The notes beneath the pieces were generated by a model that saw nothing but the letters and a program-made list of their open reading frames with translations, ran no database searches and was not told the origin of the DNA. Of a stretch of DNA of 64,000 bases, positions 13,846 through 64,000 are shown piece after piece (the first letter of the stretch is position 1; each line of letters opens with the position of its first letter). This stretch comes from Mesocentrotus franciscanus. Lineage: Eukaryota; Echinodermata; Echinoidea; Camarodonta; Strongylocentrotidae. The stretch lies in NCBI GenBank assembly GCA_037976565.1, contig CP137666.1, positions 61,688,605-61,752,604 of the forward strand. Reading direction: 5' to 3'. The position numbers and the translations under genes were made by a program.

Positions 13846-14440
13846 AGACCGAAAATTTCTGTCTCTTTCGTTCGTTAGCCTCTGATTTGGGTAGGGTCGG
13901 CTCCTCTCTTTAGAGACAGAAGCCGACCATAAACGCTCCTGTGCAAACGTTTTGGCCATTTATGGCCAAAGAACTTTGCCCAAAATACTCAATTTTAGCG
14001 GATTCATATCCGATGCATTTATGTTTGAAAATTAGGCCTAGGCTAATATACATATTTTAAACTGTTACTGTCAATGGATGACGTCATCTTCCTTCATGCG
14101 CAGTAACAGTTTAAAATACGGCTGCAAGAATTTGAACACGGAGCTCAATTTCGGCGATGAAAATCCGGAAAAAAGACCATTAAACGCATCATACAGTCAA
14201 TCTGGTACAGTAAGTGGAACCGATGTATATATTAGCCTAGCTAGGCCTAATTTTCAAACATAAATGCATCGGATATGAATCCGCTAAAATTGAGTATTTT
14301 GGGCAAAGTTCTTTGGCCATAAATCAATGGCCAAAACGTTTGCACAGGAGCGCCTATGGTCGGCTTCTGTCTCTAAAGAGAGGAGCCGACCCTACCCAAA
14401 TCAGAGGCTAACGAACGAAAGAGACAGAATTTTCCGTCTA
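13845..14440 (+). mobile_element. Mutator-like foldback MITE, copy 1 (596 bp)
   Basis: Terminal inverted repeats of about 200 bp start TAGACCGAAAATTT and end AATTTTCCGTCTA. The element is flanked by a perfect 9-bp direct repeat, ggctagacc (13836-13844 and 14441-14449). Inside, ttttaaactgttactg and its inverse form a second short hairpin around tgacgtca. A 61-codon open frame (14078-14263) is shared with the other copy, but it has no transposase feature and is not supported as a gene. Long inverted repeats with 9-bp target duplications are the hallmark of Mutator-like elements. Confidence 0.8.
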
Positions 14441-14659: not shown

Positions 14660-15150
14660 TGTAGATCTATCATCTAGATCTAGTCTACATGTCATTATTT
14701 AAAGATACAACTTTTATTTACACAATGCACTTTGATTATTCAATTTGGACCAACAATTCTAGAGATATGGATTTTTAGATAATATTTCAGAGCCCTATTC
14801 TTTGGATGAAGTTCTATTCTTTGGATGAACTTACAGGGTAGCGCGCCCGGTATTAGGGAGGCCCATGGTGAAAATCTGCATTTTGAAATTTAGGGGTCAC
14901 TTTGAAGTAGCTTAACTTCAAACTCAGAACAAAAGACCAACTGAATTATTTTTTTCTTCGTAGTAGATATAAAGTTTAACCCATTGAAAAAAAATTGAAA
15001 CCCCCATATCAATAGTTCTTATGTTATGAATTTTTGAAAACTCATAAACTTCGACTTGTGTTTTTTTATATTATTAGCAATTCCCAAATATGTGTCCAAC
15101 CCGGACTCCAAGGCATGATGTTGAAATAAGAAGTGTTGATCTCTGTTTCC
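14660..15150. other. Intergenic, nothing recognised
   Basis: AT-rich sequence up to the truncated start of the LINE. No gene signals were seen. Confidence 0.4.
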
Positions 15151-15151
15151 C

Positions 15152-15978
15152 ATGTATATATACTTTAATCCTAGACAAAAAGAAATTGATTTAGAAGTTG
15201 TAAGTGAAAATTTAATGAAGGTGCAGGAATGGTGTAATGCAAACGAAGTCACAATTAACCTACAGAAAACAAACTATATGATTATGAAATCCAAAGGTAG
15301 ATCATTAGACAAAAAAGGATCTGTGAGAATATCATTTGTAGGAATTGAAATTAATTGTCACCTTTCATGGAAAGAACATATTCAGACAATAAACAAATGC
15401 ATACGAAAGAAAGTAGGCATTCTGTTTAAACTGAGACATTTTGTTCCCAAGAATATACTTGTGTTATTATATATAAGGCTTTTATACAGCCTCACCTCTC
15501 TTATGGAGTAGAAGTATGGGGGAGCACTTACAAAAGTAATCTAAATTGTATATATTTAAGTCAAAAAATGGCAATGAGAGCAATTACATTCAGTCCACTT
15601 AGAACAGACTCCAAACCTCTTTTTCAAAGTCTAGAAATATTAAATATTTTTCAACTTCATGAACTTCTTGTATCAACATTTATGTATGATTTGGTAAAAG
15701 GTGTTTTACCACACTCTTTAGTTGATTATTGTCAGATGATACAGCACAGATATGCAACTAGGAGAAAAGAAAGTGGCTTACTCTATCAACCAAAATGTAA
15801 AACAACGCAAGGGCAATTTTGTATTTCGTTTGTAGGAACAAAGCTGTGGAATGATCTCCCAGATGAAATTAGATTAAAAACATCGAGGTTATCTTTTCGA
15901 GACATCTTTCCACCTACCTTCTATGTAAATGACGTGGGCTCAGTCTCACCCCCTCTTCGTTTTTCCTTTTTTATTTAA
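15152..15978 (+). pseudogene. LINE reverse transcriptase, C-terminal third, frameshifted
   Basis: Two open segments (15152-15511 and 15568-15978) join across one frameshift near 15470. In order: VTINLQKTNYMIMKSKGR, a G(I/V)EI..HLSWKEHI block, an IRKKVGILFKLRHFVPK helix, QPHLSYGVEVWGSTYKS after the shift, a LEILNIFQLHELLVSTFMY stretch, RYATRRKESGLL, and GTKLWNDLPDEIR. This is the standard order downstream of the catalytic palm in CR1/Jockey-type reverse transcriptases. The YADD box, endonuclease and ORF1 are absent, so the copy is 5'-truncated and dead. It is the best-preserved retrotransposon protein in the window. Confidence 0.75.
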
Positions 15979-25654: not shown

Positions 25655-26394
25655 ACTACAGGACACAAAACAAACAATATGAAACAGAAAGTAAGCATAC
25701 AAATGTATCAAGTGTTTTATTGCTGAAGTGGAAGCTACATGTATAGTGACCACAAAATCCCCTTAACTTTAATATTCTGTACCATTGTTAGCTGTCGATG
25801 GTCATGAGTTTTACAGCTGGATCACATGCTTCTTGTCCTACTACAGGACACAAACCAAATAATATGAAACAGTAAGTAAGCATACAAATGTATCAAGTGT
25901 TTTATTGCTGAAGTGGAAGCTACTTGTATAGTGACCACAAAATCCCCTTAACTTTAATATTCTGTACCATTGTTAGCTGTCGATGGTCATGAGTTTTACA
26001 GCTGGATCACATGCTTCTTGTCCTACTACAGGACACAAAACAAATAATATGAAACAGTAAGTAAGCATACAAATGTATCAAGTGTTTTATTGCTGAAGTG
26101 GAAGCTACATGTATAGTGACCACAAAATCCCCTTAACTTTAATATTCTGTACCATTGTTAGCTGTCGACAGTCATGAGTTTTACAGCTGGATCACATGCT
26201 TCTTGTCCTACTACAGGACACAAAACAAATAATATGAAACAGTAAGTAAGCATACAAATGTATCAAGTGTTTTATTGCTGAAGTGGAAGCTACATGTATA
26301 GTGACCACAAAATCCCCTTAACTTTAATATTCTGTACCATTGTTAGCTGTCGACGGTCATGAGTTTTACAGCTGGATCACATGCTTCTTGTCCT
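25655..26394 (+). repeat. Tandem array, 185 bp x 4
   Basis: Units start at 25655, 25840, 26025 and 26210 with actacaggacacaaa and end in catgcttcttgtcct. They differ at only a few positions (for example cgatggtcat, cgacagtcat, cgacggtcat). There is no open frame through the unit, so a non-coding recent expansion is likely. Confidence 0.9.
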
Positions 26395-28249
26395 TCCTTA
26401 AGTTCCTTTGTACTTTACAGGCAGGATATCAGTCACATTTGTCTTGAAAAAATGGAAGGCCGAACAAGGTCTTGAACCTTACCTCTGTCTAGTCAGGTTC
26501 ATGTTCATATGACTGTACATCCGGGGGAAAATAGACGGGGGCGGAGGGCAATTTTGCCCCTGAAAAGGCATACAAGAGTCCCCATAGGCACCATCATCAT
26601 CTGCTGCTTATATACAGTATGAAACTTTTCTATCGGACATTTCAGGTCTCGACCCATTGTATTTGTATGGGAGCCGGAACTGCCTTTGCCACATACCGTC
26701 TACCGAGTTCAAATAATTTTTTTAAAATGCAATTACACAGTACATATGAGAGGAGCTAAGCAAAGGCTAGGATTGTGATCAGTTTACATGTGACCGTGAG
26801 GATACTTAAACTCTTGAGAAGCATCTTTTGAATTGTTAGCTAGTGTGATTACATATATATTAGAAAATTTGCTGTTTCTTGAAATAGTGACCCAGGCACA
26901 GGTCTTAACTTTTTTTGCGCAAAGAATTTCCTATTCTTTGTCCAAATCATGCTGATCAAGCTATACTTTTTTGAACAATTTCTCCTTCTTGTGAAGTTCT
27001 CTTTGATAAAGATGCATTCGTCATGTCACAATTCTTGAGTTCAAATCTTTGTGAGCATACTTTGAGGACTTTGCCATAAGGTCACTGTAAAGTCACCGTC
27101 ACTCCCAGTCTCTTCTCACAGATGTAGATGCATGAAGACCAAATCGGAATGCATATTTCAATGATGCCACAAAAAAACAGCAGACAATTGCATTGAGAAT
27201 ATTGCTTTTCATCATCTATACTTGATTTTGTGTCCTGTATCTGGGATAGGAGTCGAAGAGATTTTGTCATTGTACAAAGTGAAATAGATACTAAGACATA
27301 TCTGGTTGTGGATTGACTGCCCGAATTCAGTCCGTAGGGTTGATTTTATCAACACCATTGATTTTGTGACAACATTTTTAACTGATAGCATTTCGTAAAA
27401 ACTTCTAGGACTGCTCCAGATTTCCCAATGATTACTTTCCTGATTGATTTTATCATTCAGTCATGTTTAATTAAGTTGGCACTGTGTCTAGAATAGTCAA
27501 TTTATTAACCTACAGCTCTAATTTATGAAAAGAGTATGTTTGGAACCGTTAGTGTAGTGGTCCACTTGCATGTCTTAATCAGTCACATTGGGAGAGACCT
27601 GGGGAAGTGGGGAGTGTACACAAAATAAAAAATATATGTTCCATTTTATCCAGGCACAGGTATGATGTAGTAGTTATATTTCCATAGCACCCTAGGGGGA
27701 AAATGGAAGTCTTTGACATGTCTATCCAAATCCAATGGAGAATTGCTGGCAAAGAAAAACGGAGGATTACCAATATGTGTACACTGTATGTGATCAATCA
27801 CAAATTTAATTTAAAGATAAAGACCAGTTCTGGTCATGCGATTGCATTGTGAAAGAAACGTTGTGGAATCGATCAGAAAATGTTGATCATCTAGCATATA
27901 AGTCTTGGTGTGTACTGAAGGTTCTGGAATCATAAAAATGATAAGAAATTTGGCCAAGTCTTGGTAATGTTACAAGCACTGTACACAGAAAGGTGTATAT
28001 GGGACTAAGCGACACGTGCGCGCACATGCGCGATATCTTTTTGGTCCCAATAGATATAATAATTTACCAAATATATCAATTAGTAGGCGGTTTCCCGGCA
28101 AAATTTGTATCATCACGTATTAGTCAAAACATATTCTTTCACATGATTGGTAATGAGAGCTTCCATTTCATTTCTTAAGAGGGGGGCATTTCCAAAACGG
28201 GTCTATACCTTTAAAGAAAATGTATTCTTTTTTTTTAATAATTAGTGTC
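26395..28249. other. Intergenic upstream of progranulin, nothing recognised
   Basis: No conserved exon or repeat was identified. The 5' untranslated exon and promoter of the downstream gene may lie in this stretch or in the foldback after it, but no TATA box or initiator could be defended. Confidence 0.35.
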
Positions 28250-28988: not shown

Positions 28989-29068
28989 AGAGAGAGATGA
29001 AGCTGGTGGCTATCCTTGTGGCTTCCCTCGTGTCACTGGCATTTGGAGGACCCCTGAAAGTATCAAAG
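28989..29068 (+). CDS. GRN: Progranulin exon with start codon and signal peptide
   Basis: The acceptor tttccttgcag ends at 28988, followed by 8 untranslated bases and ATG at 28997. Twenty-four codons then reach the donor gtacat at 29069. They encode a short basic N-terminus, a hydrophobic core ([15 protein letters not shown]) and a small-residue cleavage zone before GPLKVSK. The strong acceptor upstream of the ATG implies at least one non-coding 5' exon, which I could not locate. Confidence 0.85.
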
Positions 29069-32000
29069 GTACATTTCTCTATGGTTAGGAAGAAATGGAA
29101 ATAGTTAATTTATTAGAAAGTGGTTCAATGATGGGGAAGTATGTGTATAGCGGGGACAATTCACCTTTTGAGCAAATTTAAAGAGCTTGTCTCGATCATG
29201 TCAATCTCATGTGATATCATTTTAAAGAGAAGGTTGAGTTTTGGGAAGGGGGGAAAAATAATTTGTGAGCATTATCATTGTTAATATGCAAGTGTGGAAG
29301 AATATCAGATAAAAAATGTTCCCTGAAAAGCATGGCTCTTCAAATGCCTAAATATTCTAAATATGGCATGTAACAGCATAAAAATCGGGATGGACTTTTA
29401 TGCCACATGTTCGTGTAGTCCCACATCTTTCTGTGTACAGTGCTTGTAACTTTACCAAGACTGGGCCAAATTTCTTATCATTTTTAATGATTCCAGAACC
29501 TTGCAGTACACACCAATACTTATACATGCTAGATGATCAACCTTTTCTGATCGATTCCACACCGTTTCTTTCACAATGCAATCTCATGACCAGAACTCAA
29601 CTTTATCTTTAAAATGCAAGTCTTATAACGTTTTGGCTACATTGTATCTTTTTCCAGGTGGAAGAACTTGCCAAAGAGAATACTTGTAAAGATGGGAAGA
29701 TATGTACTTCTACTTCAACGTGTTGTAACGGCTTGAACGACGAATCAGGATGTTGCACATACCCAAATGCAGTATGCTGCTCTGATGGTCGTCACTGTTG
29801 TCCTACAGGCTACGAATGTGATGTCACCAGCAATACATGCATAAAAGGAAATGATGTGATGATGATGTTGATGGCAGATTTAACTAGTTTTGCATCTGCT
29901 GTAATTTGTCCAGATAAACAATCAGAATGTCCAGATGGTAATACCTGTTGCAAACTTGCTTCTGGCCAATATGGTTGTTGTCCTCTACCAAATGCAGTGT
30001 GTTGTAGTGATCATGTTCACTGCTGTCCATCAGGATACACTTGCGATGCAGGAGCCTGCACACAAGGAGAGTCTGTTGTCTCTTGGTATGAAAAATCGTC
30101 TGCCACTCCTGTGCAAGTAGAGAGTGTTATATGTCCAGGAGGCCAAGCACAATGCCCAGATGGTAATACATGTTGCCAACTTCCTTCTGGTCAATATGGT
30201 TGCTGCCCTATACCAAATGCAGTGTGTTGTAGTGATGGTCAGCACTGCTGTCCATCAGGATACACTTGCGATGTATCTGCAGGAACCTGCACAAAGGGAA
30301 AATCTGTTGTCTCTTGGTATGAAAAGTCATTTGCCACTCCTGTGCATTTGGAGAGTGTTGTATGTCCTGATGGCCAATCAGAATGTCCAGACGGTAATAC
30401 ATGTTGCAAACTTGCTTCTGGCCAATATGGTTGTTGTCCTATACCAAGTGCAGTGTGTTGTAGTGATCATCTTCACTGCTGTCCATCAGGATACACTTGC
30501 GATGTATCATCTGGAACATGCTCACGAGGAAAATCTGTTGTCTCTTGGTATGAAAAGTCACCTGCCACTCCTGTGCAAGTAGAGAGTGTCGTATGCCCTG
30601 ATGGCCAATCAGAATGTCCAGATGGTAATACATGTTGCAAACTTGCTTCTGGCCAATATGGTTGTTGTCCTATACCAAGTGCAGTGTGTTGTAGTGATCA
30701 TCTTCACTGCTGTCCATCAGGATACACTTGCGATGTATCATCTGGTACATGCTCACGAGGAAAATCTGTTGTCTCTTGGTATGAAAAGTCACCTGCCACT
30801 CCTGTGCAAGTAGAGAGTGTTGTATGTCCTGATGGCCAAACAGAATGTCCTGACGGTAATACATGTTGCAAACTTGCTTCTGGCCAATATGGTTGTTGTC
30901 CTATACCAAGTGCAGTGTGTTGTAGTGATCATCTTCACTGCTGTCCATCAGGATACACTTGCGATGTATCTGCAGGAACCTGCACACAAGGAGAGTCTGT
31001 TGTCTCTTGGTATGAAAAGTCACCTGCCACTCCTGTGCATGTGGAGAGTGTTGTATGTCCTGATGGCCAATCAGAATGTCCAGATGGTAATACATGTTGC
31101 AAACTTGCCTCTGGCCAATATGGTTGTTGTCCTATACCAAATGCAGTGTGTTGTAGTGATCATCTTCACTGCTGTCCATCAGGATACACTTGCGATGTAT
31201 CTGCAGGAACCTGCTCCCAAGGAGAGTCTGTTGTCTCTTGGTATGAAAAGTCATCTGCCACTCCTGTGCATGTGGAGAGTGTTGTATGTCCTGATGGCCA
31301 ATCAGAATGTCCAGATGGTAATACATGTTGCAAACTTGCCTCTGGCCAATATGGTTGTTGTCCTATACCAAATGCAGTGTGTTGTAGTGATCATCTTCAC
31401 TGCTGTCCATCAGGATACACTTGCGATGTATCTGCAGGAACCTGCACCCAAGGAGAGTCTGTTGTCTCTTGGTATGAAAAGTCACCTGCCACTCCTGTGC
31501 AAGTAGAGAGTGTTGTATGTCCTGATGGCCAATCAGAATGTCCAGATGGTAATACATGTTGCAAACTTGCTTCTGGCCAATATGGTTGTTGTCCTATACC
31601 AAGTGCAGTGTGTTGTAGTGATCATCTTCACTGCTGTCCATCAGGATACACTTGCGATGTATCATCTGGTACATGCTCACGAGGAAAATCTGTTGTCTCT
31701 TGGTATGAAAAGTCACCTGCCACTCCTGTGCATGTGGAGAGTGTTGTATGTCCTGATGGCCAATCAGAATGTCCTGACGGTAATACATGTTGCAAACTTG
31801 CTTCTGGCCAATATGGTTGTTGTCCTATACCAAATGCAGTGTGTTGTAGTGATCATCTTCACTGCTGTCCATCAGGATACACTTGCGATGTATCTGCAGG
31901 AACCTGCACACAAGGAGAGTCTGTTGTCTCTTGGTATGAAAAGTCACCTGCCACTCCTGTGCATGTGGAGAGTGTTGTATGTCCTGATGGCCAATCAGAA

Positions 32001-35000
32001 TGTCCAGATGGTAATACATGTTGCAAACTTGCCTCTGGCCAATATGGTTGTTGTCCTATACCAAATGCAGTGTGTTGTAGTGATCATCTTCACTGCTGTC
32101 CATCAGGATACACTTGCGATGTATCTGCAGGAACCTGCACACAAGGAGAGTCTGTTGTCTCTTGGTATGAAAAGTCACCTGCCACTCCTGTGCATGTGGA
32201 GAGTGTTGTATGTCCTGATGGCCAATCAGAATGTCCAGATGGTAATACATGTTGCAAACTTGCCTCTGGCCAATATGGTTGTTGTCCTATACCAAATGCA
32301 GTGTGTTGTAGTGATCATCTTCACTGCTGTCCATCAGGATACACTTGCGATGTATCTGCAGGAACCTGCACCCAAGGAGAGTCTGTTGTCTCTTGGTATG
32401 AAAAGTCACCTGCCACTCCTGTGCATGTGGAGAGTGTTGTATGTCCTGATGGCCAATCAGAATGTCCAGATGGTAATACATGTTGCAAACTTGCTTCTGG
32501 CCAATATGGTTGTTGTCCTATACCAAGTGCAGTGTGTTGTAGTGATCATCTTCACTGCTGTCCATCAGGATACACTTGCGATGTATCATCTGGTACATGC
32601 TCACGAGGAAAATCTGTTGTCTCTTGGTATGAAAAGTCACCTGCCACTCCTGTGCATGTGGAGAGTGTTGTATGTCCTGATGGCCAATCAGAATGTCCAG
32701 ATGGTAATACATGTTGCAAACTTGCTTCTGGCCAATATGGTTGTTGTCCTCTTCCAAATGCAGTGTGTTGTAGTGATCATCTTCACTGCTGTCCATCAGG
32801 TTACACTTGCGATGCAGGGGCCTGCACACAAGGAGAGTCTGTTGTTCCTTGGTATGAGAAGTCATCTGCCACTCCTGTGCATGTGGAGAGTGTTGTATGT
32901 CCTGATGGCCAATCAGAATGTCCAGATGGTAATACATGTTGCAAACTTGCTTCTGGCCAATATGGTTGTTGTCCTATACCAAATGCAGTGTGTTGTAGTG
33001 ATCATCTTCACTGCTGTCCATCAGGATACACTTGCGATGTATCTGCAGGAACCTGCACACAAGGAGAGTCTGTTGTCTCTTGGTATGAAAAGTCACCTGC
33101 CACTCCTGTGCATGTGGAGAGTGTTGTATGTCCTGATGGCCAATCAGAATGTCCAGATGGTAATACATGTTGCAAACTTGCTTCTGGCCAATATGGTTGT
33201 TGTCCTATACCAAGTGCAGTGTGTTGTAGTGATCATCTTCACTGCTGTCCATCAGGATACACTTGCGATGTATCTGCAGGAACCTGCACACAAGGAGAGT
33301 CTGTTGTCTCTTGGTATGAAAAGTCACCTGCCACTCCTGTGCATGTGGAGAGTGTTGTATGTCCTGATGGCCAATCAGAATGTCCAGATGGTAATACATG
33401 TTGCAAACTTGCTTCTGGCCAATATGGTTGTTGTCCTATACCAAGTGCAGTGTGTTGTAGTGATCATCTTCACTGCTGTCCATCAGGATACACTTGCGAT
33501 GTATCATCTGGTACATGCTCACGAGGAAAATCTGTTGTCTCTTGGTATGAAAAGTCACCTGCCACTCCTGTGCATGTGGAGAGTGTTGTATGTCCTGATG
33601 GCCAATCAGAATGTCCAGATGGTAATACATGTTGCAAACTTGCTTCTGGCCAATATGGTTGTTGTCCTATACCAAATGCAGTGTGTTGTAGTGATCATCT
33701 TCACTGCTGTCCATCAGGATACACTTGCGATGTATCTGCAGGAACCTGCACACAAGGAGAGTCTGTTGTCTCTTGGTATGAAAAGTCACCTGCCACTCCT
33801 GTGCATGTGGAGAGTGTTGTATGTCCTGATGGCCAATCAGAATGTCCAGATGGTAATACATGTTGCAAACTTGCTTCTGGCCAATATGGTTGTTGTCCTA
33901 TACCAAGTGCAGTGTGTTGTAGTGATCATCTTCACTGCTGTCCATCAGGATACACTTGCGATGTATCATCTGGTACATGCTCACGAGGAAAATCTGTTGT
34001 CTCTTGGTATGAAAAGTCACCTGCCACTCCTGTGCATGTGGAGAGTGTTGTATGTCCTGATGGCCAATCAGAATGTCCAGATGGTAATACATGTTGCAAA
34101 CTTGCTTCTGGCCAATATGGTTGTTGTCCTATACCAAATGCAGTGTGTTGTAGTGATCATCTTCACTGCTGTCCATCAGGATACACTTGCGATGTATCTG
34201 CAGGAACCTGCACACAAGGAGAGTCTGTTGTCTCTTGGTATGAAAAGTCACCTGCCACTCCTGTGCATGTGGAGAGTGTTGTATGTCCTGATGGCCAATC
34301 AGAATGTCCAGATGGTAATACATGTTGCAAACTTGCTTCTGGCCAATATGGTTGTTGTCCTATACCAAGTGCAGTGTGTTGTAGTGATCATCTTCACTGC
34401 TGTCCATCAGGATACACTTGCGATGTATCATCTGGTACATGCTCACAAGGAAAATCTGTTGTCTCTTGGTATGAAAAGTCACCTGCCGCTCCTGTGCATG
34501 TGGAGAGTGTTGTATGTCCTGATGGCCAATCAGAATGTCCAGACGGTAATACATGTTGCAAACTTGCTTCTGGCCAATATGGTTGTTGTCCTATACCAAA
34601 TGCAGTGTGTTGTAGTGATCATCTTCACTGCTGTCCATCAGGATACACTTGCGATGTATCTGCAGGAACCTGCACACAAGGAGAGTCTGTTGTCTCTTGG
34701 TATGAAAAGTCACCTGCCACTCCTGTGCATGTGGAGAGTGTTGTATGTCCTGATGGCCAATCAGAATGTCCAGATGGTAATACATGTTGCAAACTTGCTT
34801 CTGGCCAATATGGTTGTTGTCCTATACCAAATGCAGTGTGTTGTAGTGATCATCTTCACTGCTGTCCATCAGGATACACTTGCGATGTATCATCTGGTAC
34901 ATGCTCACAAGGAAAATCTGTTGTCTCTTGGTATGAAAAGTCACCTGCCGCTCCTGTGCATGTGGAGAGTGTTGTATGTCCTGATGGCCAATCAGAATGT

Positions 35001-38000
35001 CCAGACGGTAATACATGTTGCAAACTTGCTTCTGGCCAATATGGTTGTTGTCCTATACCAAATGCAGTGTGTTGTAGTGATCATCTTCACTGCTGTCCAT
35101 CAGGATACACTTGCGATGTATCTGCAGGAACCTGCACCCAAGGAGAGTCTGTTGTCTCTTGGTATGAAAAGTCACCTGCCACTCCTGTGCATGTGGAGAG
35201 TGTTGTATGTCCTGATGGCCAATCAGAATGTCCTGACGGTAATACATGTTGCAAACTTGCTACTGGCCAATATGGTTGTTGTCCTATACCAAGTGCAGTG
35301 TGTTGTAGTGATCATCTTCACTGCTGTCCATCAGGATACACTTGCGATGTATCATCTGGTACATGCTCACGAGGAAAATCTGTTGTCTCTTGGTATGAAA
35401 AGTCACCTGCCACTCCTGTGCAAGTAGAGAGTGTTGTATGTCCTGATGGCCAATCAGAATGTCCAGATGGTAATACATGTTGCAAACTTGCTTCTGGCCA
35501 ATATGGTTGTTGTCCTATACCAAATGCAGTGTGTTGTAGTGATCATCTTCACTGCTGTCCATCAGGATACACTTGCGATGTATCTGCAGGAACCTGCACC
35601 CAAGGAGAGTCTGTTGTCTCTTGGTATGAAAAGTCACCTGCCACTCCTGTGCATGTGGAGAGTGTTGTATGTCCTGATGGCCAATCAGAATGTCCTGACG
35701 GTAATACATGTTGCAAACTTGCTTCTGGCCAATATGGTTGTTGTCCGCTTCCAAATGCAGTGTGTTGTAGTGATCATGTTCACTGCTGTCCATCAGGATA
35801 CACTTGCGATGTGTCATCAGGCACATGCACAAGGGGTAGCAACATCTTGGAATGGAGTTCAAAGTCAAGTGCACGTTCCAATGTAGACAAACTTCAGGTA
35901 TGTATAATGTTTATTCTTTTATGCTTATAAACACCTTCTTTTATCATATAGAAATTTTCTTTGTAAATGTCATTCTACAATGTTTTTAATGTATAAAGAG
36001 ATGCAGTATAAATGCACATCTTGGTGTCCCAGGATGCATTTTGTTTTAAGATGAGAATCAAGTGATGCAGTCTCTGAAGTCCTATAATACAGGAACAACC
36101 CTGTCCTGTAGGCAATGGGTTACAGTGTACCAATCACCTACAAAATTTGTTCTGTATGTTAGGGGTTTCATGTCGCCATACTGTATTCAAAATATTTGAA
36201 TTTGAGTTTGAATATTATCTGTATTAACTAGGCCCGCTATTAACATATATTATGAGTTTAAATACACTCTCAATTAACATAAAAGCAACTTGAAAGTAGA
36301 AAACTTGACGCACCCATTCACGATCCCAAAGAATAGAGCCCGCACGGAACTCAAGTCTGACCTGGGTTCAGCTCACTTTTGCAAAGAAAATTCTGCCTGT
36401 TATGCACATTATGAAGACAACTAACTCTATTCCGTTATCTCTCTATGCTCATTATTTGACTATTGCTAAAAAAAATTGCAGTTATCTTTTCGTTATAGTC
36501 TAGATTATTCAGTGCAAATTTAATTTGATTCTATGAGGTTGTTTTTGTCATTACCAAAATACCAAGAACATCTTGTAGGTCGATTTGCATTTTGATATGT
36601 GAAAATTGATCTTTTCTCTTTTTGTATATCTCTTAGACTATTACAGCCACTGAATCAGCTACCATCTGCCCAGATAGCAAGACATCATGCCCTTCATCAA
36701 ACACTTGTTGCCCCCTCATGGCTTCAGGAGAATGGGGTTGCTGCCCTGTACATAATGTAAGTTGTCTACAAGTTTTTAGATATGCCTGCCCCCAGAGATA
36801 CAAGTTTTTGTTATGAGTCAAATCAAGTTGATCAGTAGGAAACCATTAAATCTTTTGTGTGCAAGTCCAAGTGATTGCTAAAACAACATGTATTGTTGAT
36901 AAGTCAATCACAAAGAAGTAATAGGTTGATGACTTGCAAACCATGTGAAGTTGCAATCCATATCTAATCAAAAGTGAATTGATTGCAACCTTGTTTTGTC
37001 ACGGTCACAAGTGGTGTTATTGCAATCATGTCAAGTCACATGCTGAATGGTGCAAACCATGTCCAGTCCAAGTGAAATGATTGCAAACCATTTTAAGCAA
37101 CAAGTGTAGTGATTGCAATATATGTGTAGTCACAAGTAAAATTGATTGCAAACCATGTCGGCATGTGAAGTCACAAGTTGGGAGATGGCAATTCATGTCA
37201 AATCAAAAGTTAAGTGATTGCAGTCCATATAAAACATGTTCATAATCACAAACAATGTCATATCAAAGGTCAATATATTACAGCAAACCAAGGTCAGAAG
37301 TTTATCAATTACTCCGTCACCAGTCAATTGATTACCACCGGTATCAAAATCATGTCCCAAATTATTTGATAACTTACCCACACCAAGTTACACCAGAACT
37401 AAGTTAACTAATTACCAAATTCTTGTCTCAAGTCCTTTCATTTCTAACCAAGTCAGGATAGAGCAAATGCAGACATGTCTTGTGTTTACTCGGTTGATTA
37501 TTGATTCAGTCAGATCACAATTCCTTGTTTGCAAATGGAATCCATGTAGAAACCGATCACTAATATTCTGAAAGTATGCATGTATGTTTTCATAATAATG
37601 ATAACTTTTAAAGGAGGATGTAAAAGGTTGGAAATGTCAGATTTGGATAAATTTTGCCTGTACATATAAAGAAGAGAGTCTTATAAATGAAATAAAGTAA
37701 GTATGAAAGCCAAACATTGTCATCCAGCCAAGAAATCTTTGTTTGAAGTGACCAATTTGCAACTCTATTTTTACATCCTGGACTTGTGTGACGTAAGAGG
37801 GAAGACCCGCCGCTAATAAGCCAGTTCATAGTTGCAGTCTGAGCATGAGCAGATAAAGGTCACTGCAGACCAAATTGTGAAATTCACGGAGACAAAATAC
37901 TGGATACGTGCTCATGAAAGTTATGTAATTATTATTCATATATGCACAAGCAGTGCACTCCATGACACAGGTGGAAGTATTCTTAGAAAAGGGGAAACAA

Positions 38001-41000
38001 AGGCTATTTTTGTAGCACCTCCATCGCTGCATAATATTATGATGGCATCGTGTCTTCCCTCTTACGTTACAGCCCTTAGACCGAAAACGATCGCCTTCAC
38101 CTTCTCGCTTCGAGTCGCTCGTGGAGGCTTGTTTAAATGATTGTTTTTTAGTGTCAGTGGTGTTTTCAAATCATTAATTGAATTGAATCTTGTTTATGAA
38201 GTGTTAAACTGGCATAATATTCTATATTTGTTGAATTTCATTGATTGTAATGTTTTTCTTCTCCATCCTCCCTTAAACTTGTAATTCATCCAGGCTGTGT
38301 GCTGTGATGACCACATTCACTGTTGCCCATCAGGCTACAGTTGCGGAACCAACTCCTGCCAGAAGGGCTCCAAGCACCTACCCCTTCTCTCCAAGTCCAC
38401 TGGCCTCCTTAAGCTTACCTTTGAAGGACAGCAAGAGCCAGAGGTCAAAGTTCATGATAATAAACATCTCCTATTTCAGGTGAGAGAATCCCCATACATT
38501 AAGTCAAACGATTGGGGTTATGGAGTAGGTCTATAACTAGGTGGACAGAGTTGAAGCTATGAATTTGACAAGTGTAGATATTGACAGCAGAGCAGTTGTC
38601 ATCAGACTGGGTGCCAAAATAACTTTTAATCCTTGTTCATCAAGATGGTTTAGAATATTTTCTTGAAATATCTGTAGAATCTGTATGAGGATGAATAAAG
38701 TGAGATCTATGGCTCTTGACAGATACAACCACGTTTATGAATCTCTCTTTTTTTTTAATTTCCATTTATTTTTAAATTCCATTTTTATGAACATGATAGG
38801 TGGTCTCCCATGAGGAATCAGGTGATAAGATCATGTGTCCTGATGAGATCTCATCATGTCCCACTGGATCCACCTGCTGCCAGACACCAGGAAACATCTA
38901 CGGCTGCTGCCCCTATCCAGCGGTAAGTTCTTTCTATTTATACAATTTTTATGCCTCCGGCTACTTTGTAGCGGAGGCATAAAAATTGTGTTTTCTAGTT
39001 GTCCGTCCGTATGTACGTACGTACCGTTCTCGTGATCGCGTTCGTTATCTCAAGAACTGATTGATGGATTACCGCCAAACTTGGGTCATGTATGTATCTT
39101 GCATAGCCAATGAACTGAATAGATTTTGGGGTCACGAGGTTAAAGGTCAAAGGTCACAGGGCTCATTATGTATGCAAAAACAGCTTGTGATCACACTATC
39201 ATTAGAACCGGTGGACGAATTACCATCAAACTCAAGACATGTTTATGTATCTTGCAGAGCCAATGAACTGATTAGATTTTAGGGTCATGAGGTCAAAGGT
39301 CAAATGTCATGGGGCTCATTATGTATGCATATAAATAGCTTGTTAACGCATTATAATTAGAATCGACAGATGGATTACTATCAAACTCAGGACAGGAATT
39401 TATCTTGCAGAGCCATGTATATGAAAAATAGCTTGTAATCACGATATTCTGAGAACCCGTTAATGGATTACTATCAAAATTGAATATTAAAAATTGCTTC
39501 CGTTTTGGTTTGTAAAATCGCTCTATGGCAGAGCCATCATTTTCGACTGCGCGCAGTCGAAGTTCAATCTAGTCTTATTGTAGGTTTAATTGCTCAATGG
39601 ATAGATCATTTTTTGTTAGGCATAGAATATCATATAATATGGAAGACTGTTTGAACATAACGCAACCGTCAAAAGATTATATTTCTTTCATAATAACGAG
39701 AAGAGATTTTTTATTCAGTGAATGAATTAAATTGAATTTCAATGACTGCATGCTGACAAGGTTCCCAGGAAAGATCAAGGAACTACATCTTGTATTAGAT
39801 GATACCCTTGCCTGGCTCTACTTCAGAGACAGGTACAAATTGGATAGGATCTTTCAACTGGAAATTTATTGAAAGGAAAGGATGATAGTTTGCCAAATAA
39901 AGGAAATGATGGCAATTTGTGTAGTTATTAACTTCAAATTGAAATTATATTTGGACTTCACAGACCTTTATTCCTTTTTTTATTTTTTTATTTTTTTATA
40001 TTCAAATCAAGTTTATTTTACAATGGACTTCTTTGTAAATAGTGAGACTTTCATACTGTATGGGTTGTGGACCTCTCCCTTGTTATGTATGTGGTTTGAA
40101 TACATGCAGCTATTTGAAGCAGAAAAATACATTAGAAGTTTCAGTTTCAGTTTCCTGGTTATGTTTTTATTGTGATATCAAGATTTTATAGAAAAATATC
40201 TATATACTTCAAGGGCAGTAAAAAAAAAAAACTAATTTCTTGTTATGTATGTGGTTTGAATACATGCAGCTATTTGAAGCAGAAAAATACATTTTTAAAA
40301 AATAGGGGAATCTGCATGCAGCAGAATTAGTTTCAGTTACCTGGTAATGTTTATATTATGATATCAAGATTTTATAGAAAAGATTATACTTCAAGTTCAG
40401 GGGCATTCAGTATTGTGGCTATTGTGAAAGCTTTCAATTTTACTCTTGATGGGTGCTCATCACTGACAAGAAATCAGGTCAAAGGGTAGATCATTAACTC
40501 TAGGCATGTCTTACTCTCTTTATTTGTTGATATTTTTTTTTGCTGTTTGGCTATAATCCTCCTGATCCTGATTGTCCATACCCACATCAACCAATTAATC
40601 ATACATTTATCACATTCGTTTGATCAGTTCTGTGATCAATATAGTTATTTGAAAACTTTGAAGATGTGGCGCATTACAAAACTTGCAAAGAATTAATTTA
40701 CTTTTTTTTCCTCATTAAAAACGGTATAATTAAACCGACGTTCAGGAAACCTTTTAAACACCAGGGCCCATGTTCAATTATATTTAATACTGGAATCATG
40801 TCAGTATTTCACTTAGTATTCAGCTTAGCTATTGATAGCTGAAATCTTACTCAAATCACATCTAAATAATTTATTTTAGTAAGCCAATTTTAAGCCATTT
40901 TAATTTAGTAAGTACATTTTAAGCCAACTACTTTCTGATAGCCATTGTGACCAGGGCTCAATTTTTTCTTCCCCACGGGGGCTCTTCCCCCCAAAAAGCC

Positions 41001-42186
41001 CCTGTGAGCTTTCACATGACTGAATTTGTTACATATTGACTCACGGGGATCTTTTAGTAATGACGGGGGGCTCTTTCTTTAATACAAATTTCCATTGAAT
41101 TGGTACCCATGGCCATGATACTCCTAAATTCTTTGCTATTTCATCATTATCATTTATTTAAGTCAGCATTTTCCCTCTTACAACTTTACAAGTTACATGG
41201 TGTTACTGACTTTCATTCCTTGATGACATTCTCTCCATTTCTTCCTGTTCTGCACATTCCTCCTCATCATTCAGAGCAACCTTATTACACTCTTTCTTTA
41301 GTCTTTACCATATCATTCCACAACATCTTTGGTCTTCCTCTTCTTCTCAATATGCTCTCATACCACCTGGCGCGGTATAGCCACTGCTGACGGCCGCACT
41401 GCACTGCGAGCTTCTGTTCTTTGTATCGGTAATACTCGTAGAGATGTGGAGATGGGCGATATAACACCATCTTGCGGTGAATAAGCTTACATTTGTTTAC
41501 AATATGGCGGCCTCCAGACACCAATAAATTCGAGCGAGAAATCCTGCACGCTTATCTTACTTCCATAGTTCCATTTCATTGATTTAAGGTTTGAAACGCA
41601 ATATTGTGTGAAAGTTATAACAAAAACTTTCAATTTTGCAATCGCCCCCGTGAGCAATCTGAAGGAGGTAATTTTGTAGCTCATGGGGGCAAATCGCCCG
41701 TCGTCGCCCACGTGTATTTCGAGCCTTGATTGTGACATCACATAACTAATCCAAAATTATGCACAATAAGTTGCATTGAATTAAATGCAAACCTTTCTTA
41801 ATTTGCTTGTGCGCATGCCTCAGTAAGAAAAAACACATGCCTGCTAATCAAGGCCTCCACAATATTTGGCCTAGATCTGCTATGGACCTGTCTTAAACTA
41901 GTAATGGTAAAATATTTAGCCACAATCTTCAATTTAATATCAAAGTTGTCAAAGTATTTCATCTAAGCCAAAAATGTAATAAATTGTTCCGTCATAAGTT
42001 TTGAATTGAAGACTGGGCCGGATAGATAAGCAGGTTCTTTCTATTTTGATTTTGTTTGATCAGGCCATCTGCTGCTCTGATCTGATACACTGCTGTCCAA
42101 GTGACTACTCGTGTAACACCTCTACAGGAACGTGCACCAAAGATGACCATATCATGCCATGGGTGGGAAAGATTCCAATTGTCTAG
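28997..42186 (+). CDS. GRN: Giant progranulin, 29 granulin domains (spliced, 6 coding exons)
   Basis: Join 28997-29068, 29658-35897, 36637-36756, 38294-38479, 38800-38922, 42064-42186. All junctions are GT-AG and phase 0, giving 2,287 residues. Residues 1-17 or so form a signal peptide ([17 protein letters not shown]), so the protein is secreted. Domains follow the granulin pattern C-x6-C-x5-CC-x8-CC-x6-CC-x5-CC-x5-C-x6-C, with the family's AVCC-x-D-x-x-HCCPxGY core. Domain 1 covers residues 34-85, domains 2-27 about 108-2081, domain 28 2115-2166 and domain 29 2219-2271. No transmembrane segment was seen. Progranulins are secreted precursors cut in the linkers to about 6 kDa granulins; they act in growth, lysosomal function and immunity. 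Human progranulin has seven and a half domains, so this is exceptionally long. Repeat number could be affected by assembly of near-identical units. Confidence 0.9.
29658..35897 (+). CDS. GRN: Progranulin giant exon, granulin domains 1-27
   Basis: A single exon of 6,240 bp (2,080 codons) between the acceptor tttttccag (ends 29657) and the donor gtatgt (35898). Domain 1 is divergent and followed by its own linker with [11 protein letters not shown]. Domains 2-27 are almost identical, with a constant linker [20 protein letters not shown]. Every domain keeps all 12 cysteines, and no stop or frameshift occurs in 27 units, which argues for purifying selection or very recent homogenisation. Domains 2 and 14 are two residues shorter near the end (DAGAC instead of DVSAGTC). 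Invertebrate exons of this size are unusual, and other granulin genes split each domain over two exons. Confidence 0.9.
29904..35828 (+). repeat. 231-bp tandem array encoding granulin domains 2-27
   Basis: Twenty-six units of 231 bp (two of 225 bp), in frame because 231 is 77 codons. Two main variants exist: type A with CPIPNAV and [10 protein letters not shown], and type B with CPIPSAV and [10 protein letters not shown]. From unit 17 to unit 26 they alternate strictly B-A, giving a 462-bp higher-order period. Pairs 21-22 and 23-24 share the private changes tcacaagg, gccgctcct and agacggtaat, so that dimer duplicated recently. Because the period is a multiple of three, other stop-free frames also run through the array on both strands. 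Confidence 0.95.
36637..36756 (+). CDS. GRN: Progranulin exon 3, first half of granulin 28
   Basis: Forty codons between the acceptor tatctcttag and the donor gtaagt. They encode the [10 protein letters not shown] start, [16 protein letters not shown] and end at VHN, exactly before the AVCC of the next exon. Cutting the domain between the third and fourth cysteine pairs is the usual place for a granulin intron. The sequence is clearly divergent from the array units, so this domain was not part of the recent expansion. Confidence 0.9.
36830..37345 (+). repeat. Degenerate tandem repeat in progranulin intron 3
   Basis: Loosely repeated units of about 35-40 bp around gtgattgcaaaccatgtcaa and tcacaagt, seen perhaps a dozen times with many changes. 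Non-coding and old, judging by divergence. Confidence 0.6.
37788..38070. mobile_element. 283-bp MITE in progranulin intron 3
   Basis: The left end gtgacgtaagagggaagac and the inverse of the right end, gtaacgtaagagggaagac, match at 18 of 19 positions. There is no transposase. A short open frame across it is not a gene. No target duplication could be fixed. Confidence 0.6.
38294..38479 (+). CDS. GRN: Progranulin exon 4, second half of granulin 28 and linker
   Basis: Sixty-two codons between the acceptor ttcatccag and the donor gtgaga. [22 protein letters not shown] completes domain 28 with its last six cysteines; the final loop is short. A 40-residue linker follows, rich in K and L ([19 protein letters not shown]), unlike the WYEKS linker of the array. 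Confidence 0.9.
38800..38922 (+). CDS. GRN: Progranulin exon 5, first half of granulin 29
   Basis: Forty-one codons from the acceptor catgatag to the donor gtaagt. [10 protein letters not shown] leads into [15 protein letters not shown] and GCCPYPA, stopping before AICC, the same split point as domain 28. A HINE-like repeat begins only 28 bp after the exon end. Confidence 0.9.
38951..39573 (+). mobile_element. Helentron/HINE-like element family B, copy 1, in progranulin intron 5
   Basis: Begins with the hairpin atgcctccggctactttgta/gcggaggcat. A (gtccgt/acgt) tract follows, then tandem units of about 150 bp with aactgattagattt and gaggtcaaaggtca. It ends with the perfect palindrome ttcgactgcgcgcagtcgaa (39542-39561) and then gttcaatctagt. 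The 3' palindrome close to a CTAGT end fits Helitron-type termini. Orientation matches the host gene. Confidence 0.6.
40078..40407 (+). repeat. Two-copy direct duplication in progranulin intron 5
   Basis: The block starting cttgttatgtatgtggtttg (about 40078) recurs at about 40229, and both run through tgcagctatttgaagcagaa to gatatcaagattttatagaa. The second copy carries an extra aaaataggggaatctgcatg insertion. Non-coding. Confidence 0.8.
40952..41728. mobile_element. hAT-like non-autonomous element in progranulin intron 5
   Basis: The ends CAGGGCTCAATTTT and (inverse) CAAGGCTCGAAATA match imperfectly. The flanking 8-bp repeat attgtgac is perfect (40944-40951 and 41729-41736). Subterminal gcccctgtgagc and gcccccgtgagc are also inverted relatives. 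Length is 777 bp with no transposase. Eight-bp duplications and CAGGG ends are usual for hAT elements. Confidence 0.65.
42064..42186 (+). CDS. GRN: Progranulin last exon, end of granulin 29 and stop
   Basis: The acceptor gtttgatcag ends at 42063. Forty codons follow: [17 protein letters not shown] ... GTC completes domain 29, and a 16-residue tail ([15 protein letters not shown]) ends at TAG 42184-42186. The conserved glycine of the HCCPxGY motif is an aspartate here. Confidence 0.9.
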   Translation, partial: AICCSDLIHCCPSDYSCNTSTGTCTKDDHIMPWVGKIPIV

Positions 42187-51506: not shown

Positions 51507-52098
51507 TAGACCGAAAATTCTGTCTCTTTCGTTCGTTAGCCTCTGATTTTGGTAGGGTCGGCTCCTCTCTTTATTGACAGAAGCCGACCATAGGCGCTCC
51601 TGTGCAAACGTTTTGGCCATTTATGGCCAAAGAACTTTGCCCAAAATACTCAATTTTAGCGGATTCATATCCGATGCATTTATGTTTGAAAATTAGGCCT
51701 AGCTAGGCTAATATATACATCGGTTCCACTTACTGTACCAGATTGACTGTATGATGCCTTTAATGGTCTTTTTTCTGGATTTTCATCGCCGAAATTGAGC
51801 TCCGTGTTCAAATTCTTGCAGCCGTATTTTAAACTGTTACTGCGCATGAAGGAAGATGACGTCATCCATTGACAGTAACAGTTTAAAATATGTATATTAG
51901 CCTAGGCCTAATTTTCAAACATAAATGCATCGGATATGAATCCGCTAAAATTGAGTATTTTGGGCAAAGTTCTTTGGCCATAAATGGCCAAAACGTTTGC
52001 ACAGGAGCGTTTATGGTCGGCTTCTGTCTCTAAAGAGAGGAGCCGACCCTACCCAAATCAGAGGCTAACGAACGAAAGAGACAGAAATTTTCGGTCTA
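51507..52098 (-). mobile_element. Mutator-like foldback MITE, copy 2 (592 bp), inverted
   Basis: Same family as 13845-14440, with the internal part in the opposite orientation. The ends are TAGACCGAAAATTC and AATTTTCGGTCTA, and the flanking 9-bp repeat agcctaaac is perfect (51498-51506 and 52099-52107). The shared internal frame here is 51680-51865 on the minus strand and differs by one residue (a lysine for an asparagine), so the copies are young. Confidence 0.8.
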
Positions 52099-62381: not shown

Positions 62382-63189
62382 ATGCCTCCGCTACAAAGTA
62401 GCCGGAATTATGTTTTCTGGTTGTCAGTCCGTGCGTACATACGTGCGCACGTGCGTGCGTCTGTGCGTGCGTCCCGTTCTCGTGATCGCGTTATCTCAAG
62501 AACCAATTGATGGATTACCGCCAAACTCAGGTCATGTATGTATCTTGCAGAGCTAATGAACTGATTAGATTTTGGGGTCACGAGGTCAAAGGTCACAGGG
62601 TCCATTATGTATGCAAAAATAGCTCGTGATCGCGTTATCTCAACCGATTGATGGATTACCGCCAAACTTGGGTCCTGTATGTATCTTGCAGAGCTAATGA
62701 ACTGATTAGATTTTGGGGTCACAAGGTCAAAGGTCACAGGGCTCATTATGTATGCAAAAATAGCTTGTGATCGCGTTATCTCAAGAACCGATTGATGGAT
62801 TACCGCCAAACTTGGGTCATGTATGTATCTTGCAGAGCTAATGAACTGATTAGATTTTGGGGTCACGAGGTCAAAGGTCACAGGGCTCGTTATGTATGCA
62901 AAATAGCTTGTGATCACGTTATTTCAAGAATCGATTGATGGATTACCGCCAAACTTGGGTCATGTATGTATCTTGCAGAGTCAATGAACTGATTAGAATT
63001 GGGGTCACGAGGTCAAAGGTCACAGGGCTCATTATGTATCCTAAAATAGCTCGTGATCGTGTTATCATTAGAACCAACAGATGGATTACAATCAAACTTG
63101 AATTTTAAAAATTGCTTCCATTTTGGTTTGTAAAATTGCTCTATGGCGGAGGCATTTTTCGACTGCGCGCAGTTGAAGTTCCATCTAGT
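62382..63189 (+). mobile_element. Helentron/HINE-like element family B, copy 3 (808 bp, complete)
   Basis: 5' atgcctccgctacaaagtag hairpin, a (gtgcgtgc)-like microsatellite, and four units of about 140-150 bp with gaaccgattgatggattacc and acgaggtcaaaggtcacagg. Then subterminal cggaggcat (63147-63155), the inverse of the 5' end, the near-perfect palindrome ttcgactgcgcgcagttgaa (63158-63177), and the end atctagt followed by a T run. The minus-strand open frame here is a repeat product, not a gene. Confidence 0.65.
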
Positions 63190-63477
63190 TTTTCTTCTCC
63201 ATTTGTAATAAATTTCTTATGCATGTACAAGAAGTTGTTCAAAATAGATGAAATCTCCCCTGTTTGGTTTATTGGGAGGGAAGGTTTCTTAAAGATTAAG
63301 TGTTCCACGGTTGCCAGAGAACTACAAAGGCAGTGGGCCAGAAGCACAAAGGACATATTGAATTGATGCAAACAGTTCTTAAGCAGATAAAAGTCTTTTT
63401 AAAAGTCTATTGAATGGAAGGATATCTACTTAATAGTGGGAATTTGAATAAGGAAATGTGTAAAGATAATATTTGAT

Positions 63478-63822
63478 TGTAAAGCATGTTGACTGTTAGA
63501 GAGGAACAAGAATCTGTGTGTTAGTAAAAAGCTCTGTAAAGCATGTTGACTGTTAGAGAGGAACAAGAATCTGTGTGTTAGTAAAAAGCTCTGTAAAGCA
63601 TGTTGACTGTTAGAGAGGAACAAGAATCTGTGTGTTAGTAAAAAGCTCTGTAAAGCATGTTGACTGTTAGAGAGGAACAAGAATCTGTGTGTTAGTAAAA
63701 AGCTCTGTAAAGCATGTTGACTGTTAGAGAGGAACAAGAATATGTGTGTTAGTAAAAAGCTCTGTAAAGCATGTTGACTGTTAGAGAGGAACAAGAATCT
63801 GTGTGTTAGTAACAAGCTCATT
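63478..63822 (+). repeat. Tandem array, 57 bp x 6
   Basis: Units begin at about 63481, 63538 and 63595, then every 57 bp, with aaagcatgttgactgttaga and end in gtaaaaagctctgt. Only single substitutions are seen (aatatg for aatctg, taacaag for taaaaag). Since 57 is 19 codons, a minus-strand frame stays open through all copies; it encodes only the repeated 19-mer and is not supported as a protein. Confidence 0.9.
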
Positions 63823-64000
63823 TCATTGACATGTAGATTCTAACCGGATTCTAATCTAATTTACAGAAGTTTCAGGGGATAATTGTCTATTTGTTCATCT
63901 TACATGTACAGTATTGCCTGAAATAAAGTATGTACTCTCACACTGTCTCACGCGTGACTGCATGTATTATTCCATAGAATTTGATGTGACTTGGTGCATA

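Follow-up and report, generated by a model that had tools for sequence, protein, structure and literature searches.

The 64,000-nt stretch of DNA analysed here (the window) holds a gene whose protein is almost entirely a chain of granulin modules, which raises the question of what the gene is, how so long a run of modules came about and is kept uniform, and whether its size is exceptional.

The precursor comprises 2,287 residues and a stop codon, and is encoded on the forward strand between 28997 and 42186 by six coding exons with phase 0 joins and GT-AG junctions. The spliced frame of this length that the initial annotation had put forward was thus reproduced on translation of the six exons. 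The splicing itself is predicted from the splice signals and from comparison with a protein of the sea urchin Lytechinus pictus (P0125). Coding exon 1 (28997-29068, +) supplies the ATG, a start resembling a signal peptide as judged by eye, and the residues GPLKVSK; the start aligns with that of P0125. Giant coding exon 2 (29658-35897, +) has 6,240 bases, or 2,080 codons without a stop, and encodes modules 1 to 27 with their linkers. It is followed by coding exon 3 (36637-36756, +), in which a linker precedes the N-terminal half of module 28, and by coding exon 4 (38294-38479, +), in which the C-terminal half of that module precedes a long linker. Similarly, coding exon 5 (38800-38922, +) consists of a linker and the N-terminal half of module 29, and coding exon 6 (42064-42186, +) of its C-terminal half, a C-terminal tail that aligns with that of L. 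pictus, and the stop codon. Six cysteines could be read in the sequence of each of exons 3 and 5. Exon 2 lies within the longest stop-free run of the + strand (29613-35927, 2,105 codons). When the window was simulated 50 times with a first-order Markov model and read in three frames of one strand, no stop-free run exceeded 218 codons, which rules out a chance reading frame.

In progranulin genes each module is typically built from an N-half exon and a C-half exon, according to the excerpted text of Palfree et al. 2015 (PMC4527844). This split is present in modules 28 and 29 and absent from modules 1 to 27, which share a common exon. It is likely that the inner introns were lost from a block, which then grew in tandem.

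Several repeats were seen in the window outside the coding exons. An inverted repeat flanks coding exon 1 (27810-27996 and 29423-29613). Its arms measure 91 nt (92%) and 64 nt (95%) and lie ~1.4-1.6 kb apart; they could allow pairing of the pre-mRNA around this exon. At 25655-26394, 2.6 kb upstream of the ATG, a 185-bp tandem repeat is present in four copies with 98% matches. Intron 5 contains a repeat of ~153 bp (39063-39415), and an open frame on the other strand at 62408-62923 apparently belongs, by eye, to the same family. An open frame of 73 residues occurs twice, at 14042-14263 (+) and 51680-51901 (-), with one residue different, and is a dispersed repeat. Near the window edge, the open frame at 63426-63839 (-) is a minisatellite made of the tandem 19-residue phrase LLTHRFLFLSNSQHALQSF. 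The open frames at 293-667 and 15140-15978, which by eye we take to resemble the ends of non-LTR reverse transcriptases, were without a Pfam match at E 0.01, and the same held for all 10 open frames selected outside the granulin gene. The window gave no Rfam match at the gathering threshold.

The identity of the gene was examined by a Pfam domain scan covering exons 2, 4 and 6. Granulin (PF00396) was found above the curated cut-off in 27 separate stretches of exon 2 and again in exons 4 and 6, and was the sole domain with matched stretches. MoaF_like, DUF7402, DUF6406 and DUF2120 passed on their whole-protein E-values with no matched stretch for any of them and were set aside as repeat artefacts.

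One array unit matched human granulin A (2JYE) by sequence with an E-value of 1.9e-20. A structure was predicted for two modules; the best of five models had a mean pLDDT of 83, with values of ~70-90 through the inter-module linker, the other four had 56-67, and pTM was 0.46. In a Foldseek comparison the two-module model aligned to the zebrafish granulin 6CKU (1.9 Å; TM 0.75 by target length). Alignments to the human granulins A (2JYE, TM 0.33) and C (2JYT, TM 0.37) were weaker, and no Foldseek match of this model reached E 0.001. The sequence match to 2JYE and the model match to 6CKU together point to a granulin fold.

The modules were also compared with one another. All 29 have 12 cysteines and between them hold all 348 cysteines of the precursor, and a profile built from 400 modules also counts 29 full modules in the window protein. 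The number of complete 12-cysteine modules given in the initial annotation is therefore borne out, as a number that holds for the sequence as assembled, in which the array covers ~6 kb with exact repeats of up to 770 bp. The linkers are cysteine-free and have ~24 residues. The description of the granulins as almost identical is right for the array, which together with module 1 places 27 of the 29 modules in exon 2, and wrong for modules 1, 28 and 29, which are divergent. Only 13 distinct peptides occur among the 29 modules, and two of them make up 18 modules.

The divergent module 1 (29685-29840, +) is followed by the tandem array of modules 2-27 (29907-35831, +), built from a 231-bp unit of two types, A and B. 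The stop-free run contains 25.6 copies of this unit, with 94% matches. Between units 16 and 26 the two types alternate, and the linkers mostly begin with acidic TQGE or basic SRGK according to unit type (A, B). The longest exact repeat in the array has an offset of two units which, with the alternation, points to a probable amplification of two-unit blocks.

The closest comparison is provided by P0125, annotated as 'uncharacterized protein ZC84.1-like isoform X1', which has 1,904 residues and 24 modules as against 29 here. The two proteins have in common the start, the divergent first module, an array unit of 77 residues, a final pair of modules unlike the others, and the C-terminal tail, and the shared ends, first module and last modules identify the window gene as a sea urchin progranulin. 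The N-terminal parts are 69% identical (104 aligned residues) and the C-terminal parts 77% (252). Modules 1, 28 and 29 of the window and 1, 23 and 24 of L. pictus are reciprocal best matches at 77, 83 and 85% identity, respectively. With PF00396, the 12-cysteine modules and orthology at both ends, the initial assignments to progranulin and to an echinoderm are right. The C-terminal identity to the Diadema protein is 62% for the window and 63% for L. pictus, suggesting that the window progranulin is closer to Lytechinus than to Diadema.

A different pattern was found inside the array. Window modules 2 and 4-27 have their best matches within their own protein (96-100%, as against 87-92% to L. 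pictus), the exception being WIN_03 (0.868 to its own modules, 0.887 to L. pictus array modules). Likewise, L. pictus modules 2-22 match best within their own protein (96-100%, as against 91-92% to the window); WIN_27 tops their window matches, partly tied with others such as WIN_26. A comparison of 22 units from the window with 20 from L. pictus gave fixed differences at seven of the 77 residues of the unit. Mean unit identity is 0.958 within the window and 0.967 within L. pictus but 0.858 between them, a gap reached by 0 of 300 label permutations, in which units that are not independent are treated as independent. A FastTree phylogeny was set aside as stand-alone proof of homogenisation, as support was 0.0 for the array clade of the window and for that of L. 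pictus; WIN_02/14 and WIN_27 lay outside the main window clade. Such low support is explained by the shortness and near-identity of the modules, and the species split therefore rests on the identities and the counts of fixed differences.

At the DNA level, the 231 pairs of 22 window units gave a mean pS of 0.0825 and a mean pN of 0.0183 (pN/pS 0.22). Between unit types pS was 0.129, compared with 0.036 within A and 0.033 within B. An array homogenised in each species, with edge modules that remain one-to-one orthologues, is the pattern expected of unequal exchange or conversion combined with purifying selection. In an intron-free stretch, units would be gained, lost and homogenised by unequal crossing-over and gene conversion, and purifying selection would maintain the 12-cysteine fold. 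Thus it is very likely that this is a Lytechinus-related sea urchin progranulin in which exchange has homogenised the array under purifying selection, and whose precursor, predicted to be secreted or lysosomal, would be cut in its linkers.

As to the last of these points, the precursor would be secreted or routed to lysosomes, and proteases would cut the cysteine-free linkers to give single granulins and multi-granulin fragments, by analogy with mammalian progranulin. The excerpted text of one study (PMC8330050) states that lysosomal proteases digest the mammalian linkers and that human granulin F is freed by asparagine endopeptidase. A scan of the precursor's linkers revealed no dibasic or furin sites. 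None of 22 array linkers contains asparagine, so asparagine endopeptidase is unlikely to be the enzyme that cuts them.

The lack of dibasic and furin sites would also fit a long chain maintained as such, to act as a multivalent protein that is secreted or built into a matrix, rather than mainly to store single granulins. The array is a regular polymer of a single unit, and the confidence of the best two-module model is maintained across the linker. Against this, the linkers of mammalian progranulin are digested by lysosomal proteases (PMC8330050), and here the amino acids of the linkers vary more than those of the modules (pN 0.038 compared with 0.010), as would be expected of spacers. We consider a multivalent chain rather unlikely, and a precursor that is cut in its linkers remains the preferred reading.

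The true number of modules could differ from 29 if near-identical units had been falsely expanded or collapsed during assembly. The longest exact repeats exceed a short read, and several units are identical in DNA sequence (9, 13, 17 and 19; also 15, 18 and 20). However, the whole array of ~6 kb fits within one long read, and its 22 variable sites across units, 17 of them with a variant common to more than one unit, argue that it is not a single block copied over. Similar numbers are found in the database proteins of L. pictus, Diadema and Holothuria, which carry the same assembly risk. An assembly error of this kind is improbable. No result of the analysis argues in particular for the altered dose per transcript or the defence or growth specialisation that the initial annotation put forward. 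We also doubt that selection for a larger granulin dose in defence or growth raised the copy number: the 12 cysteines kept in 29/29 modules and the pN/pS of 0.22 indicate that the extra units are not decaying, but predictions with more than 20 modules span many phyla without a nameable common habit, and exchange in an intron-free tandem array would add or remove units without selection.

Homogenisation by exchange is preferred to selection for dose. On a further reading, to which we attach little weight, the array could be a coding minisatellite that changes rapidly and differs in its number of units among individuals, so that the granulin yield per transcript would vary too; the A and B linkers may be cut by different proteases to give two product pools. 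Since the array lacks introns and alternates two types of unit, the exchange process could be tested by comparison across individuals.

The size of the protein was assessed by applying the profile built from 400 modules to 301 database matches and to the window. The matches were the best 120 of each of three length-limited searches, and are predicted proteins in an uneven sample that includes isoforms. More than 29 modules were counted in 14 of the matches listed, at least 29 in 17 and at least 20 in 56. A record length is therefore ruled out, with more than 29 modules in 14 of the 301 matches. The initial annotation had thought the chain surprising beside vertebrate progranulins of roughly 2-12 modules. 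This contrast does not stand, as predicted proteins reach 29 modules in the electric eel Electrophorus (P0133), 27 in Scleropages and 25 in Polyodon, all vertebrates, and 41 among invertebrates. Predictions with more than 20 modules came, among the matches listed, from cnidarians, a comb jelly, ribbon worms, molluscs, a bryozoan, a tick, a tunicate, amphioxus, fishes and echinoderms. The comparison of granulin counts among echinoderms that had been proposed at the outset gave, from database proteins, 24 for L. pictus, 28 for Diadema, 28 for Holothuria and 39 for Patiria.

A size record is thus of no importance for this gene, which is a well-explained sea urchin progranulin of a kind, the long single-exon granulin array, that has already been published; a paper on this very gene was not found among the matches listed from the open-licence literature. 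Its interest lies in the comparison of the same gene with L. pictus, which makes it a clear case of a secreted regulator with a core homogenised per species and ends that are orthologous. In the excerpted text of Palfree et al. 2015 (PMC4527844), how such repeats arose is described as still not clear.

Equal or longer chains of granulins are predicted in Electrophorus, in the hydrozoan Hydractinia (P0130, 41 modules), the ribbon worm Lineus (P0124, 40), the sea star Patiria (P0121, 39, read unit by unit) and a Branchiostoma hybrid (P0128, 39). Among sea urchins, the array of Diadema antillarum (P0134) alternates two unit types, of 76 and 77 residues, through most of the protein; the A/B sequence differs from this alternation and two-unit blocks may have arisen twice. 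The excerpted text of Palfree et al. 2015 (PMC4527844) describes the Grn of Strongylocentrotus purpuratus and Paracentrotus lividus as highly repetitive with near-identical modules, as here, those of S. purpuratus lying in a single large exon like exon 2. It reports near-identical modules in one large exon for amphioxus as well, where the Grn of Branchiostoma floridae has more than 30 modules and repeats in large exon(s) as here, although the exon layout differs. Human progranulin (GRN) also consists of tandem 12-cysteine modules but has 7.5 of them, each full module on two exons (PMC4527844), whereas here one exon carries 27.
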